DNA of 64,000 nt from Corallococcus sp. EGB. Lineage in GTDB: Bacteria > Myxococcota > Myxococcia > Myxococcales > Myxococcaceae. The position numbers and the translations under genes are program-made. The notes beneath the pieces are model-generated. The model was given only the letters and a program-made list of their open reading frames with translations, made no database searches and was not told where the DNA came from. Of this stretch, positions 407 to 46,361 are shown piece by piece (the first letter of the stretch is position 1; the number at the start of each line of letters is the position of its first letter). The stretch covers positions 9,273,356-9,337,355 of the forward strand of contig NZ_CP079946.1 in the NCBI RefSeq assembly GCF_019968905.1, written 5' to 3'.

Positions 407-1069
407 TCAGGTCAGCGACACCATGCCGCCACCGGAGCCCTTCTTGCGCACCCAGGCCTTGGGCTTGGGCGGCGCCGCGGGCGCGGGGACCGGCTTCGCG
501 GCCTCCTTCAGCGCCTGGCTTCCCGCGCGGCCCCGCGGCAGCGTGACGTCCGGGACCGACTGCGGCTTCGCGCCATCCACCCACGCCTCCGGGCGGCGGC
601 CGGTGCGGATGAGCAGGCGCAGCTTCTGGTAGTGCGCAGAGCAGTAGCCCTTGGAGCGGCTCTGGCGCTTGCACCCGATGACGGCGCAGGCCTGACCTTC
701 CTCGGCGGCGGCCTTCGGCGGACGGCCCGGGGACTTCGCGGCGGGCGCGGCGGCCGGCTTCGCGACGGGCGCGGCCTTCGCGGCGGGCGCGGCCTTCGCG
801 GCCGGCGCCTTCACGGCGGGAGCAGCCTTCGGCGGACGGCCCGGACGGCGGCGGACCGGCTCCGGCGCGAGCGTGGGCGTGCGCACGCCCGCCACGGCCC
901 CCAGGCGGCTGGAGAGCGGCGCGAGCCGTTCAATCATCTCCCGCAGGTCGTCCAGGGCATCCAGCCCATGGGCCATCCGGGCGACGGCCTTCTGAACGGG
1001 AGCCAGTTGCAGTTGCAACTCGCGACGGACCATCTCGCGCAGTTCGGTCTCAAGGGAAAGTGGGGCCAT
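407..1069 (-). CDS. AT-hook and zinc-finger protein (paralogue A)
   Basis: This 220-residue protein has three parts. Residues 5-55 are a predicted helical module beginning LSLETELREMVRRELQLQL. Residues 72-125 are an Ala/Pro/Lys-rich, histone H1-like stretch carrying two AT-hook-like cores, RRPGRPPKA near 74 and SPGRPPKA near 113. After these comes a compact zinc-finger-like motif, C128-x4-C133-x9-C143-x2-H146, in the context GYCSAHYQK. Known AT-hooks bind the minor groove of AT-rich DNA, so a nucleoid or regulatory DNA-binding role is inferred. The start at 1069 is preferred over an upstream codon because it aligns with the paralogue at 45837-46361. The gene is transcribed divergently from the MoxR gene across a 72-base gap that must hold both promoters. 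Confidence 0.85.
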   Translation of the reverse strand: MAPLSLETELREMVRRELQLQLAPVQKAVARMAHGLDALDDLREMIERLAPLSSRLGAVAGVRTPTLAPEPVRRRPGRPPKAAPAVKAPAAKAAPAAKAAPVAKPAAAPAAKSPGRPPKAAAEEGQACAVIGCKRQSRSKGYCSAHYQKLRLLIRTGRRPEAWVDGAKPQSVPDVTLPRGRAGSQALKEAAKPVPAPAAPPKPKAWVRKKGSGGGMVSLT

Positions 1070-1141
1070 GTGGGGCAGGATATACACCCATCCGCCCGGC
1101 GAGGGATGGAAACATTCCCCGGGATGTTAAAGGAACCCATC

Positions 1142-1990
1142 ATGACTCCGGTTCCCCCTTCCGTTCGCTTCCGCGGCACTGACTCCTACCTCACGAGCGA
1201 GGGCCTGCAGGCGGCCGTCAACTGCGCGCTGACGCTCGAGCGGCCGCTGCTGGTCAAGGGCGAGCCCGGCACCGGCAAGACGCTGCTGGCGGAAGCGATT
1301 GCCCAGGGTCTGGGATTGAAGCTGCTCACCTGGCACGTGAAGAGCACCACGCGCGCGCAGGATGGCTTGTATGTCTACGACACCGTGCAGCGGCTGTATG
1401 ACTCGCGCTTCGGGGACGGGGACGTGCGAGACATCCGGAAATACATCCGCCTGGGGCCGCTGGGCGAGGCGTTCGCGTCGCCGGAGCGGGTGGTGTTGCT
1501 CATCGACGAGGTGGACAAGGCGGACCTGGAGTTCCCCAACGACCTGCTCCACGAGCTGGACCGGATGCGCTTCCGCATCTCCGAGACGAACGACGAGGTG
1601 GTGGCGAAGCACCGCCCCGTGGTGCTCATCACCAGCAACAACGAGAAGGAATTGCCTGACGCGTTCCTGCGCCGGTGCGTGTTCCACTTCATCGACTTCC
1701 CGGACCGCGACCTCATGCAGCGCATCGTGGACGTGCACCACCCGGGGCTGGACGCAGCGCTGGCGGACCAGGCGCTGAAGGTCTTCTACGAGCTGCGCGC
1801 GATGACACGGCTGCGCAAGCGGCCCTCCACCAGCGAGCTCGTCGACTGGATTTCAGTGCTCAAGGCCAACGGGGTGATGGAGCTGAAGCTGGACGAACAG
1901 CTGCCGTTCCTGGGCGCGCTGCTCAAGAAGGAGCAGGACCTGGTGGCGGTGGCGGAAGCCTTCGGACGCGGCCGGCGGACGCGCGCGTAA
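1142..1990 (+). CDS. MoxR-family AAA+ ATPase
   Basis: This 282-residue AAA+ ATPase has Walker A GEPGTGKT at 40-47, Walker B LLIDEVDKAD around 119-128, a sensor-like ITSNNEK segment and an arginine-finger-type FLRRCVF region. MoxR proteins act as chaperones that work with VWA-domain partners to mature metal centres or assemble complexes. The VWA partner starts 10 bases downstream, which is the classic MoxR-VWA arrangement. The ATG at 1142 is chosen because AAAGGA lies 7 bases upstream. The same frame stays open upstream, but it is antisense to the AT-hook gene and has no homology. The substrate of this pair is unknown, though a CoxD/CoxE-like relationship is plausible. Confidence 0.93.
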   Translation: MTPVPPSVRFRGTDSYLTSEGLQAAVNCALTLERPLLVKGEPGTGKTLLAEAIAQGLGLKLLTWHVKSTTRAQDGLYVYDTVQRLYDSRFGDGDVRDIRKYIRLGPLGEAFASPERVVLLIDEVDKADLEFPNDLLHELDRMRFRISETNDEVVAKHRPVVLITSNNEKELPDAFLRRCVFHFIDFPDRDLMQRIVDVHHPGLDAALADQALKVFYELRAMTRLRKRPSTSELVDWISVLKANGVMELKLDEQLPFLGALLKKEQDLVAVAEAFGRGRRTRA

Positions 1991-2000
1991 GGGACACGCC

Positions 2001-3206
2001 ATGTTCCTGCCGTTCTTCTACGAGCTGCGAAGGCGCGGGGTGAAGGTGGGCGCTCAGGAGGCGCTCGCCCTGGCCGGGGCGCTGAAGGCCGGGCTGCATG
2101 ACAGCAGCCTGGATGGGTTCTACCACGTGGCGCGCGCGCTCCTGGTGCACTCGGAGGCGCAGCTGGATGCCTTTGACCAGGCGTTCCTCGCGCACTTCCA
2201 GGGCGTGGCTTCCGACGCGCTGAAGCTCACCGAGGAGCTGCTGTCCTGGCTGGAGGAGGCGAAGGAGCGCACCGACCTGAGCCCGGAGGAGCTGGCGCTC
2301 CTGGAGCAGTGGGATCCGGAGGAGCTGCGGCGGCAGCTGGAGGAGCGGCTGAAGGAGCAGACCGAGCGCCACGACGGCGGCACGCGCTGGGTGGGCACGG
2401 GCGGCGCGTCTGCCTTTGGCAACAGCGGCATGGCGCGGCAGGGCGTGCGCATTGGCGGCACCGGGGGCCGTCAGGGTCAGGCGTTGTGGCAGGCCGGCGC
2501 GCGCAAGTACGCGGGCTACCGCGATGACCTGGTGCTGGACACCCGGCAGATGGCGGTGGCGCTGCGCAAGCTGCGGGCCTTCGCGCGCGAGGGCGTGGCG
2601 GAGGAGCTGGACATCGAAGAGAGCATCGCCGCCACCGCGAAGAACGCGGGCGAGCTGGAGGTGGTGACGCGTCCGCCGCGCCGGCCCAACACGCGCGTGG
2701 TGTTGTGCATGGACGTGGGCGGATCCATGGATCCCTACGCGCACCTGGTGAGCCGGCTGTTCAGCGTCGCCAGCCAGGCCACGCACTTCAAGGAGCTGCG
2801 CACCTACTACTTCCACAACTGCGTCTACGGGAAGCTGTACGCCACGCCGCAGCTGACGGGCGGCATCACCGTGCCGGAGCTCACCGCGCAGGTGGGACGG
2901 CATCACAAGCTGGTGATGGTGGGCGATGCGTCCATGGCCCCGTATGAGCTGGGCATCCGCACGGACGCGAATGGCCAGTACCGGCAGGAGGGGCTGGAGG
3001 GCCTGACGTGGCTGATGCAACTGGCGCAGCACTTCGAGCGCAACGTGTGGCTCAACCCGGAGCCTCGCGGGTCGTGGCGCACGGGGACCATCGCGGTCAT
3101 CGCCAATGTATTCCCCATGTTCGCCCTCACCGTGGAGGGGCTGGGTGAGGCGGTGAACCACCTGACCCGAGGGAAGACGCCCCGGGGCGCGACGGCTCGG
3201 CGGTAA
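2001..3206 (+). CDS. VWA-domain protein, CoxE-like partner of MoxR
   Basis: This 401-residue protein has an N-terminal helical region (1-130), a Gly-rich middle and a C-terminal VWA domain beginning near residue 232. The metal-ion-dependent adhesion site reads D238-V-G240-G-S242, so the first serine of the usual DxSxS is glycine; many CoxE-like proteins share this. A later TGGI segment and a VMVGDASMAP segment supply the remaining MIDAS-like positions. There is no signal peptide, so it is cytoplasmic. It sits 10 bases after the MoxR gene with AAGGGA 6 bases upstream of the ATG, which fits a two-gene operon closed by the hairpin at 3223-3244. Confidence 0.9.
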   Translation: MFLPFFYELRRRGVKVGAQEALALAGALKAGLHDSSLDGFYHVARALLVHSEAQLDAFDQAFLAHFQGVASDALKLTEELLSWLEEAKERTDLSPEELALLEQWDPEELRRQLEERLKEQTERHDGGTRWVGTGGASAFGNSGMARQGVRIGGTGGRQGQALWQAGARKYAGYRDDLVLDTRQMAVALRKLRAFAREGVAEELDIEESIAATAKNAGELEVVTRPPRRPNTRVVLCMDVGGSMDPYAHLVSRLFSVASQATHFKELRTYYFHNCVYGKLYATPQLTGGITVPELTAQVGRHHKLVMVGDASMAPYELGIRTDANGQYRQEGLEGLTWLMQLAQHFERNVWLNPEPRGSWRTGTIAVIANVFPMFALTVEGLGEAVNHLTRGKTPRGATARR

Positions 3207-44827: not shown

Positions 44828-45706
44828 TCAGGGGGCCCGGGGCTTCGCGGGCGGCGTCAGCGACGTGCGCACGTCCCACAGCTCCGGGAAGAAGCGCAGG
44901 TCCAGCGCCTTGCGCAGGAAGCCCACGCCCGACGAGCCGCCCGTGCCCTGCTTGAAGCCGATGATGCGCATCACCGTCATCATGTGCCGGTAGCGCCAGA
45001 GCTGGAACCGCTCCTCCGTGTCCACCAGCTTCTCGCACATCTCATACGCGTCCCAGTGCTTCTCGGTGTCCTCGTAGATGCGGCGGAACACCTCCATCAC
45101 CTGGGCGCTCTTCTCATACGGCTGACGCCAGTCGCGCTCCACGTGGCTTCTGGGGATGTCGTGGCCCATGCGCGCCAGGTGGCGCAGGAACTCGTCGTAG
45201 ATGCCCGGAGACTCCAGCAGGCGCTCCAGCTCCGCGTGCACGCCCTGCACGTGCTTGAAGGGCCCCAGCGCCGCCTCGTCCTTGTTGCCCAGGAGGAACT
45301 CCAGCGCGCGGTACTGGAAGCTCTGGAAGCCGGACGCGTGCCCCAGCGTGTCGCGGAACTCCAGGTACTCGTTGGGCGTGAGCGTCTCCAGCACGCTCCA
45401 CTGTTCGAAGAGCATCCGCTGGATGTGCGCGACGCGCGCGAAGATCTTGAAGGACGGCTCCAGCCGGTCCGCCTGGATGTAGCGGATACAGGCGGACAGC
45501 TCGTGGATGAGCAGCTTCATCCACAGCTCGCTCGTCTGATGCTGGACGATGAACAGCAGCTCGTCGTGATGCGGCGGCTGCGAACGGGGCACCTGCGCGG
45601 ACAGGAGGCGGTCCAGCTGCAGATAATCGCCATAGGTCGTCCGTCCCGCGAGGTCCGTGACGATTCCTGGCTCCAGGTCGCGTTTGTTCATGGCCCGGGC
45701 ACTCAT
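44828..45706 (-). CDS. kynA: Tryptophan 2,3-dioxygenase
   Basis: This 292-residue heme enzyme opens the indole ring of tryptophan to form N-formylkynurenine, the first step of the kynurenine pathway. Family marks are [13 protein letters not shown] at the N terminus, [36 protein letters not shown], and the heme-histidine and substrate-binding end [15 protein letters not shown] with [11 protein letters not shown]. The start at 45706 has GAGGGGG upstream; a downstream ATG at 45691 is possible. It is a lone gene with no kynurenine hydrolase visible beside it. Confidence 0.96.
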
Positions 45707-45836
45707 GCACACCAACCCCCTCGCGGCGCAAGCACATCCTCCGCGCGGTCAATCCAGCCACGTGCTTCCTGACGGAAGGACGGGGTCCACCTCTGCCCGG
45801 GCCGGGGCAACCCACAGCTACTGCACCGCGAAGAAC

Positions 45837-46361
45837 TCAGCCGTTCTTCTGAGCGGCTTCCGCCAGCGCCTTGGAGGCGGCGCGGCCACGCGGCAGCTTG
45901 ATGTCCTCCACGCTGTTGGGGTTGGCGTAGTCCGCCCACTCCGCCGGACGGCGGTTGGTCTTCTCCAGCATGCGCAGCTTCTGGTAGTGCGCGGCGCAGT
46001 AGCCCTTGGTGCGGCTGGGCTTGCCGCAGCCCTTGATGGCGCACTCGCGGGCGCCGCCCTCCACCGCCGCCGGCTTGCGGCCCCGGCGCTTGCCACCCGC
46101 CGCCGCCACCACCGGCGCGCTCACCACCGCGCGGCCCGGGCGACCCACGGGACGACGACCGGCCTTGCCCGCCGCGGGCGCGTTCGCACCGAAGAGGGGA
46201 CCCACCACCTGCGCCAGGGGCGCCAGGCGCTCGGCCACGCTGCGCAGCGCATCCAGGTCCGCCGTGCCCGACTCCAGACGAGACACCACGTCGCGCAGGG
46301 GCTTGAGCTGGACTTCAATCTCGTTGCGAATCATCTCGCGGAACGCCTTGTCAACTGACAT
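45837..46361 (-). CDS. AT-hook and zinc-finger protein (paralogue B)
   Basis: This 174-residue protein has the same layout as the protein at 407-1069. It has a helical N terminus (REMIRNEIEVQLKPLRDVV), a basic middle with AT-hook cores RRPVGRPGRA (69-78) and KRRGRKPAA (91-99), and the finger C107-x4-C112-x9-C122-x2-H125 in the context GYCAAHYQKLR. The C terminus shares NRRPAEWAD with the TGRRPEAWVD of paralogue A. The ATG at 46361 matches the start of the paralogue. A DNA-binding nucleoid or regulatory role is inferred. Confidence 0.87.
   Translation of the reverse strand: MSVDKAFREMIRNEIEVQLKPLRDVVSRLESGTADLDALRSVAERLAPLAQVVGPLFGANAPAAGKAGRRPVGRPGRAVVSAPVVAAAGGKRRGRKPAAVEGGARECAIKGCGKPSRTKGYCAAHYQKLRMLEKTNRRPAEWADYANPNSVEDIKLPRGRAASKALAEAAQKNG

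Follow-up and report, generated by a model that had tools for sequence, protein, structure and literature searches.

Two related genes in the window

The window is the whole stretch of 64,000 nucleotides that was analysed; it covers 9,273,356-9,337,355 of a complete 9.43 Mb genome and has a G+C content of 66-76% (2-kb steps). Two of its genes, P0002 and P0003, lie 45 kb apart on the same strand, and their features are collected in Table 1 together with the neighbouring genes. An earlier note on this DNA had paired the two proteins, and the pairing is sound: both frames are open, the architecture is common to both, and P0002 residues 4-181 and P0003 residues 1-160 are identical in 74 of 178 columns (42%; BLASTP, E 3e-40). 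It had not been stated that both genes are read from the minus strand. An alternative GTG start is possible 6 codons further up in the P0002 frame. The calculated pI is 11.5 for P0002 and 10.9 for P0003, and ranges from 10.6 to 12.2 across the 85 rows of the P0002-type and P0003-type sets. An RNA element was also considered, and the window contains none at the gathering scores of Rfam.

Table 1. Positions in the window of P0002, P0003, their parts and their neighbours
Feature	Position	Strand	Remark
P0002	407..1069	-	220-aa basic protein: helix, linker with two PGRPPK hooks, finger and WVRKKG tail
P0002 N-terminal region (residues 1-62)	884..1069	-	probable helix, by homology with P0003
P0002 hook 1, RRRPGRPPK (residues 73-81)	827..853	-	
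P0002 hook 2, SPGRPPK (residues 113-119)	713..733	-	KSPGRPPK with the preceding residue
P0002 finger, C-x4-C-x9-C-x2-H-Y (residues 128-147)	629..688	-	
P0002 tail motif, LPRGR (residues 177-181)	527..541	-	
MoxR-type AAA ATPase	1112..1990	+	divergent neighbour of P0002; first codon uncertain
VWA CoxE-like protein	2001..3206	+	next in the divergent unit beside P0002
Tryptophan 2,3-dioxygenase	44828..45715	-	conserved same-strand downstream neighbour of P0003; Pfam PF03301, E 8e-68
P0003	45837..46361	-	174-aa basic protein; its type is the basis of the family profile
P0003 N-terminal long helix (residues 3-53)	46203..46355	-	AlphaFold2; possible multimerisation part
P0003 hook 1, RRPVGRPGR (residues 69-77)	46131..46157	-	RGPGRP in many orthologues
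P0003 hook-like motif 2, KRRGRKP (residues 91-97)	46071..46091	-	
P0003 finger, C-x4-C-x9-C-x2-H-Y (residues 107-126)	45984..46043	-	
P0003 tail motif, LPRGR (residues 156-160)	45882..45896	-	invariant in 38/38 (family alignment)

The minus-strand reading of both genes is under purifying selection within the genus, the dN/dS being 0.25 across 12 P0002 sequences and 0.15 across 10 of P0003. Taken by parts, P0002 has within-genus values of 0.14 in the N-terminal region, 0.055 in the finger and 0.46 in the linker. A wider comparison of 9 P0003-type sequences gives 0.30 for the finger, 0.12 for the N-terminal helix and 0.40 for the linker, and the finger is thus not the most constrained part of P0003 in that comparison. 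Within the genus the P0003 finger has the fewest synonymous differences, with a pS of 0.065 where the remaining parts of the gene have 0.16-0.21, which may reflect codon bias or an overlapping constraint.

Helix, finger and hooks

In the AlphaFold2 model of P0003 (overall pTM 0.37) residues 3-53 form a helix, the linker has low confidence and the finger is confident; the block pLDDT is 74 to 89 through residue 50 and 77 to 93 in the finger. The finger region modelled alone reaches a mean pLDDT of 80 and a pTM of 0.59. Residues 3-36 of P0003 are amphipathic, their hydrophobic moment being matched by 11 of 2000 shuffles; for residues 4-40 of P0002 the moment is not above that of shuffles (672 of 2000 as high). 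With Foldseek neither model had a match below E 0.001, the best values being 3.1 and 5.0. With VIA-align the whole protein reached a Z of at most 4.0, to the P22 tail needle on the helix, and of 2.3 and 2.1, to the glucocorticoid receptor DNA-binding domain on the finger, and the finger region alone had no match at Z 2 or more. A sequence search of solved structures returned two matches, neither convincing (best E 0.26). This lack of a convincing structural relative does not show that the fold is new.

The C-x4-C-x9-C-x2-H finger described in the earlier note has exactly that spacing in both proteins, the putative ligands being C128, C133, C143 and H146 in P0002 and C107, C112, C122 and H125 in P0003. 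Invariance of the ligands in our alignments A1 and A4 is partly by construction, because the rows were collected with a Cys/His pattern, and the count was for that reason repeated without such selection. In 205 of 205 loci that align with P0003 across the finger, many of them close relatives or overlapping, none of the four ligands is lost. Among these are 63 of the loci L006-L069 (L031 ends before the finger), 43 more of P0003-type, 38 from the P0002 group and another 43 with the finger. Judged by its sequence, this is a probable zinc finger that very probably holds a metal.

Relatives of the finger are found among phage proteins. The PHROG family phrog_5351 (HNH endonuclease) matches all 55 finger regions scanned, phrog_1271 matches 49 and phrog_19978 matches 35; the two window proteins match the N-terminal GYC-x2-HY finger of phrog_5351 with E 9e-7 and 3e-7. 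The PHROG matches span 25-52 residues at the finger, that to phrog_5351 ending 11-12 residues past it and the longest one, to phrog_19978, 29 residues past it. When P0003 was used in a tblastn search of phages it found three records, namely a Rhizobium phage protein annotated as HNH endonuclease, which begins with the finger (63% identical over 27 residues), and two hypothetical proteins. Pfam finds no HNH domain in that Rhizobium phage protein and the other two matches are hypothetical, so the tie of the finger to DNA cutting is one of annotation. P0002 and P0003 themselves have no Pfam match to an HNH nuclease domain and no nuclease part was seen in them, which is a weak test since Pfam misses the annotated phage protein too. 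The sole Pfam family listed for P0002 and P0003 at E up to 10 is Zf_WRKY19 (PF24906), with 10.8 and 14.5 bits against a curated score of 27; it matches 51 of the 55 finger regions at E up to 1 (best 3e-6).

The same finger occurs in other settings. A number of small basic proteins inside and outside the bacterial family (L133, L135-L138, L140, L144, L200, L208, L211) have the finger followed by a second Cys/His cluster. Open frames of 400-520 aa at L134, L150 and L156 combine a helical N-terminus and the finger with a C-terminal part which by eye is Fis-like, and L134 scores above the Zf_WRKY19 cut-off. At L177 and L197 a 360-codon open frame carries two tandem copies of the finger with an LPRG motif after each.

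An AT-hook is defined by a GRP core with K/R flanks and often P (PMC11354804). RRRPGRPPK and KSPGRPPK of P0002 and RRPVGRPGR of P0003 fit this definition; the canonical RGRP is absent from both proteins. The PGRPPK-type hooks which the earlier note ascribed to both proteins are present twice in P0002, but P0003 has VGRP and RGRKP and is weaker in this respect than described. Pfam AT_hook (PF02178, cut-off 17.4 bits) matches neither protein, and the Pfam families listed for the 38 A1 members do not include it. PF02178 is a short and weak model, and in this genome it gives 14.5-14.7 bits at three sites, all below the cut-off, two of them in a protein with four KKRGRPPK repeats which by eye we take for CarD.

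Of 50 P0003-type sequences 47 have GRP in the linker, where composition-matched shuffles give a mean of 6.2 and a maximum of 14; of 35 P0002-type rows, which count one genome twice, 28 have it (shuffles: mean 3.2, maximum 9). The counts far exceed the shuffles, which never reach them, and we therefore regard the hooks as selected and reject the idea that they arise by chance in K/A/P-rich sequence. Among the 50 P0003-type sequences the forms are 29 PGRP, 1 RGRP and 18 with V or A before GRP, with 3 lacking GRP; among 34 P0002-type sequences they are 18 PGRP, 9 RGRP and 1 other, with 7 lacking GRP (in each set one sequence has two forms). The AT-hook label thus stands on GRP counts above shuffles, but most forms are PGRP or VGRP rather than RGRP and Pfam AT_hook is blind to them. 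Another 51 finger ORFs inside and outside the family, found by the Cys/His pattern and including near-copies and second fingers of one protein, have GRP at most 45 residues before the finger in 13 cases (shuffles: mean 2.8, maximum 9).

Conservation of finger and hooks in orthologues had been set as a test of the proposal. It is found in the P0003 orthologues, but the hooks are not kept in all P0002 orthologues, as the seven without GRP demonstrate. In Corallococcus the P0002 hooks lie in a linker of 56-68% K+A+P. Three of the seven P0002-type sequences without GRP (L167, L175, L176) have a linker of 60-79% K+A+P; two (L170, L173) carry tails, 95 or 148 residues long, in which K+A+P make up 64%; and two (L168, L171) have GRKP or RGR and no K/A/P-rich linker or tail. 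Four P0002 orthologues (L159, L163, L165, L169) have GRP plus a K/A/P tail of 100-106 residues, and together with L170 and L173 they make up the P0002 orthologues with histone H1-like, K/A/P-rich tails of 95-148 aa. The word histone-like in the earlier note gains support from these H1-like linkers and tails.

Spread of the family and its paralogues

The earlier note suspected a family behind the two proteins and proposed a genome-wide search, which has borne this out. With P0002 as query, five places match in the genome it comes from, and each of the 16 genus genomes searched has a match. A profile made from A1, an alignment of 38 P0003-type sequences, yields seven matches in this genome; within the bacterial family, apparently Myxococcaceae, it hits 95 of 96 genomes, with all 26 genera represented (best 40 candidates per genome scored in both cases). 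The match has E 1e-42 or better in 91 of the 96 genomes, including three genomes of 2.1-2.7 Mb. The remaining five comprise G048, G081 and G082, where the matches are weak, G083, whose match is confined to the C-terminal half (2.4e-38), and G093, which has no match; in G054 the best match is partial too. Across the phylum some match is found in 157 of 195 genomes (best 19 candidates per genome scored). In 15 inspected genomes outside the family the match is mainly the finger and some upstream sequence; the two best ones, G162 (3.5e-16) and G161 (1.1e-13), take in the whole part from N-terminus to finger. Among named records P0003 is most similar to those of Corallococcus, with 97 to 91% identity. 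Two records titled Comamonas sp. KCTC 72670 (L020, L067) carry Myxococcus-like versions of these genes and are probably mislabelled.

The P0003-type set of 50 excludes L031, L036 and L047, which are cut by contig ends, and L035 and L052, which are C-type. From the P0002-type set the two-finger L177 was excluded, and the more remote paralogues L060-L069 are in neither set; L178 is the same genome as L074, and this duplicate is present in the count of 35 P0002-type rows and absent from that of 34 sequences. In the tree all P0003-type rows and the C-type stand apart from the P0002-type rows with a support of 94/99, just below the mark of the tool. With 22 P0002-type rows the groups labelled E and C are supported as one-branch groups and the P0002-type is not shown as one clade (3 changes), so that P0002-type orthology rests on synteny too. 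In a sample of 12 genomes the two best family matches on one contig (three of the second matches taken by position alone) were read on the same strand; they are 45 kb apart here, 50-93 kb apart in nine genomes and 131 and 177 kb apart in two. As we read these sequences, P0002 and P0003 are linked paralogues, mostly vertically inherited, of one myxobacterial family. An origin as phage or plasmid gene was rejected: the phage matches of P0003 by tblastn are weak and finger-only, there is no plasmid match, and both the synteny and the overall form of the tree suggest vertical descent.

The C-type paralogues (L003 1549-1947, minus strand; L004 1546-1944, minus strand; L035; L052) have a P0003-like finger and tail behind a different, short N-terminus without hooks. 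They form a fully supported clade, and L003 is identical to P0003 in 57 of 62 residues of finger and tail. The C-type is possibly a truncated modulator. A prophage location of L003 was considered and dropped, its two neighbours having no PHROG match.

There is no full-length family for P0002 or P0003 in Pfam, NCBIfam or PHROGs, and we found no description of these proteins among the papers listed by the literature searches, which subscription journals and preprints mostly escape.

Proposed role and comparison with known systems

Starting from the observed architecture, conservation, family spread and gene neighbourhoods of P0002 and P0003, we consider it somewhat better than an even guess that the family is an unnamed class of DNA-binding architectural regulators which bridge or decorate DNA and tune transcription. 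The N-terminal helix would probably make the protein a dimer or something larger. The disordered basic linker may place the GRP hooks, or the H1-like K/A/P stretch, along an AT-rich or generic minor groove, as the conservation and the precedent of CarD suggest. By its homology the C-terminal finger would dock on nucleic acid, as it presumably does in the phage proteins called HNH endonucleases, and the LPRGR tail of P0003 is a possible extra minor-groove contact. P0003 would be the core copy of such an architectural protein and P0002 a diverging second copy. A finger can bind RNA or protein instead, which counts against the DNA-binding reading. Our confidence is lowered because Pfam does not confirm the HNH domain of the phage relative and because of the dN/dS value of the finger in the wider P0003 comparison.

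The gene neighbourhoods might point to a more local role. The dioxygenase lies downstream of P0003 on the same strand in 44 of 50 P0003-type loci and within 300 bp in 42; 47 of the 50 loci extend 900 bp or more beyond P0003 on that side. For the 27 nearer loci the dioxygenase and two upstream neighbours are found in 27, 27 and 25; in the 23 more divergent ones the dioxygenase is kept in 17 and the two upstream neighbours tested in 0, a contrast which may partly be one of detection because the two upstream proteins evolve faster. There is no terminator-like site on the minus strand between P0003 and the dioxygenase, and a functional or operon link between the two is likely. Among the 20 loci fetched for P0002 orthologues, MoxR (with or without VWA) adjoins 10 and transketolase without MoxR adjoins 9; neither is found at L177, which is not P0002-type. 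P0003 might from this be mainly a local regulator of the dioxygenase in an autoregulated tryptophan-catabolism operon, and P0002 of the divergent MoxR-VWA or transketolase unit. We find this rather improbable as the main role. The presence of the dioxygenase was checked in 14 genomes, and it lies within about 2 kb of P0003 on one contig in six of them (G000, G045, G049, G050, G062, G083). The two are on different contigs in G046, the enzyme is present with only weak family matches in G081 and G082, and P0003 is present without a dioxygenase match in G084, G085 and G086 (2.3, 2.7 and 2.1 Mb; completeness 88, 99 and 94); G048 and G093 have neither a strong P0003 match nor the enzyme. P0003 is retained in three small genomes in which no dioxygenase was detected, so some part of its role very probably lies outside that enzyme. 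Several paralogues per genome with hooks of low specificity would also be an odd design for a single target. A second, weaker tryptophan 2,3-dioxygenase match of this genome lies away from P0003 (G000:C1:716067-716414, minus strand).

The order of helix, linker and DNA-binding part is also the layout of H-NS and Lsr2. The family could accordingly be imagined as a myxobacterial stand-in for these proteins, a xenogeneic silencer whose helix-driven oligomers coat AT-rich foreign DNA in a G+C-rich genome. The hooks, the invariant RGR and the near-universal presence in the bacterial family agree with such a function. Neither H-NS (best 71 candidates per genome at most scored) nor Lsr2 was found in any of 92 family genomes, the present one included, in a search for these two silencer families; among 14 control genomes the H-NS search was positive in E. 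coli only and the Lsr2 search in Corynebacterium glutamicum only. P0002 and P0003 themselves match neither PF00816 (H-NS) nor PF11774 (Lsr2). With H-NS and Lsr2 undetected there is a place for some other AT-seeking architectural protein, which does not prove that the P0002/P0003 family fills it. The oligomers and the binding to foreign DNA are suppositions, the hooks are dispensable in some P0002 orthologues, and we judge the silencer improbable.

The reading of the GRP stretches as a flexible basic linker only, with a finger that binds RNA, RNA polymerase or another protein, would fit the PGRP forms unseen by Pfam AT_hook, the orthologues without GRP and the missing structural relative, but it is quite improbable as GRP is kept within an otherwise poorly alignable linker, the finger is homologous to phage proteins called HNH endonucleases and CarD offers a parallel.

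Beyond the favoured reading as an architectural regulator, myxobacteria may have an architectural class of their own for organising or silencing chromosomes that are very large and G+C-rich. In this class a phage-type finger would be joined to an exchangeable HMGA-like or H1-like linker, and P0003 would be its core, kept even in genomes of 2.1-2.7 Mb. This is a tentative proposal which we ourselves find doubtful. Its single parts (AT-hook, H1-like tail, phage-type finger) are already known; their combination as a near-universal family is absent from the libraries scanned and the literature searched. If DNA is bound as proposed, an HMGA-like and H1-like family of chromosomal proteins would be added which is nearly universal in a large-genome bacterial family.

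Among known systems, WhiB7 of actinobacteria joins a hook to a Cys metal cluster; the cluster is a four-Cys iron-sulphur cluster, the hook is C-terminal and the partner is a sigma factor. WhiB7 is a bacterial AT-hook protein, and in the eukaryotic PATZ1 and ZFAT an AT-hook is joined with zinc fingers (PMC11354804; see also PMC4427657 and PMC5751127). These fingers differ in being C2H2 or Kruppel-type with several per protein, and WhiB7 as well as PATZ1 and ZFAT are likened to P0002 and P0003 by description alone.

The phage proteins called HNH endonucleases (phrog_5351, phrog_1271) share the N-terminal GYC-x2-HY finger, whereas P0002 and P0003 have no visible nuclease part. Zf_WRKY19 has the same Cys/His pattern and differs in that the window proteins stay below its curated score. 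Lsr2 and H-NS contact the minor groove through Q/RGR and bind cooperatively (PMC4466236), and the LPRGR after the finger of P0002 and P0003 recalls this Q/RGR as a resemblance only. If the DNA binding is true, the family is a concrete candidate for how myxobacteria handle AT-rich DNA without a detected H-NS or Lsr2.

The earlier note had named CarD as a known bacterial example of AT-hooks, and CarD holds as a myxobacterial precedent for hooks. CarD of Myxococcus xanthus has, like our proteins, a K/A/P-rich basic part, there with RGRP hooks, which is H1-like in some orthologues (PMC9304148). It differs by a domain at the N-terminus that binds RNA polymerase and by an acidic stretch (PMC8156234 and PMC9304148). 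P0002 and P0003 carry the finger and mostly PGRP or VGRP hooks; no CarD_CdnL_TRCF domain was found in them by a Pfam scan at E up to 10, and with no RNA polymerase-binding domain found we do not count them as members of the CarD family. The basic part of CarD acts as HMGA or as H1, and the two types replace one another among orthologues (PMC9304148 and PMC8156234). If our reading is true, the P0002/P0003 family would be a second case besides CarD of orthologues with either hooks or H1-like stretches.
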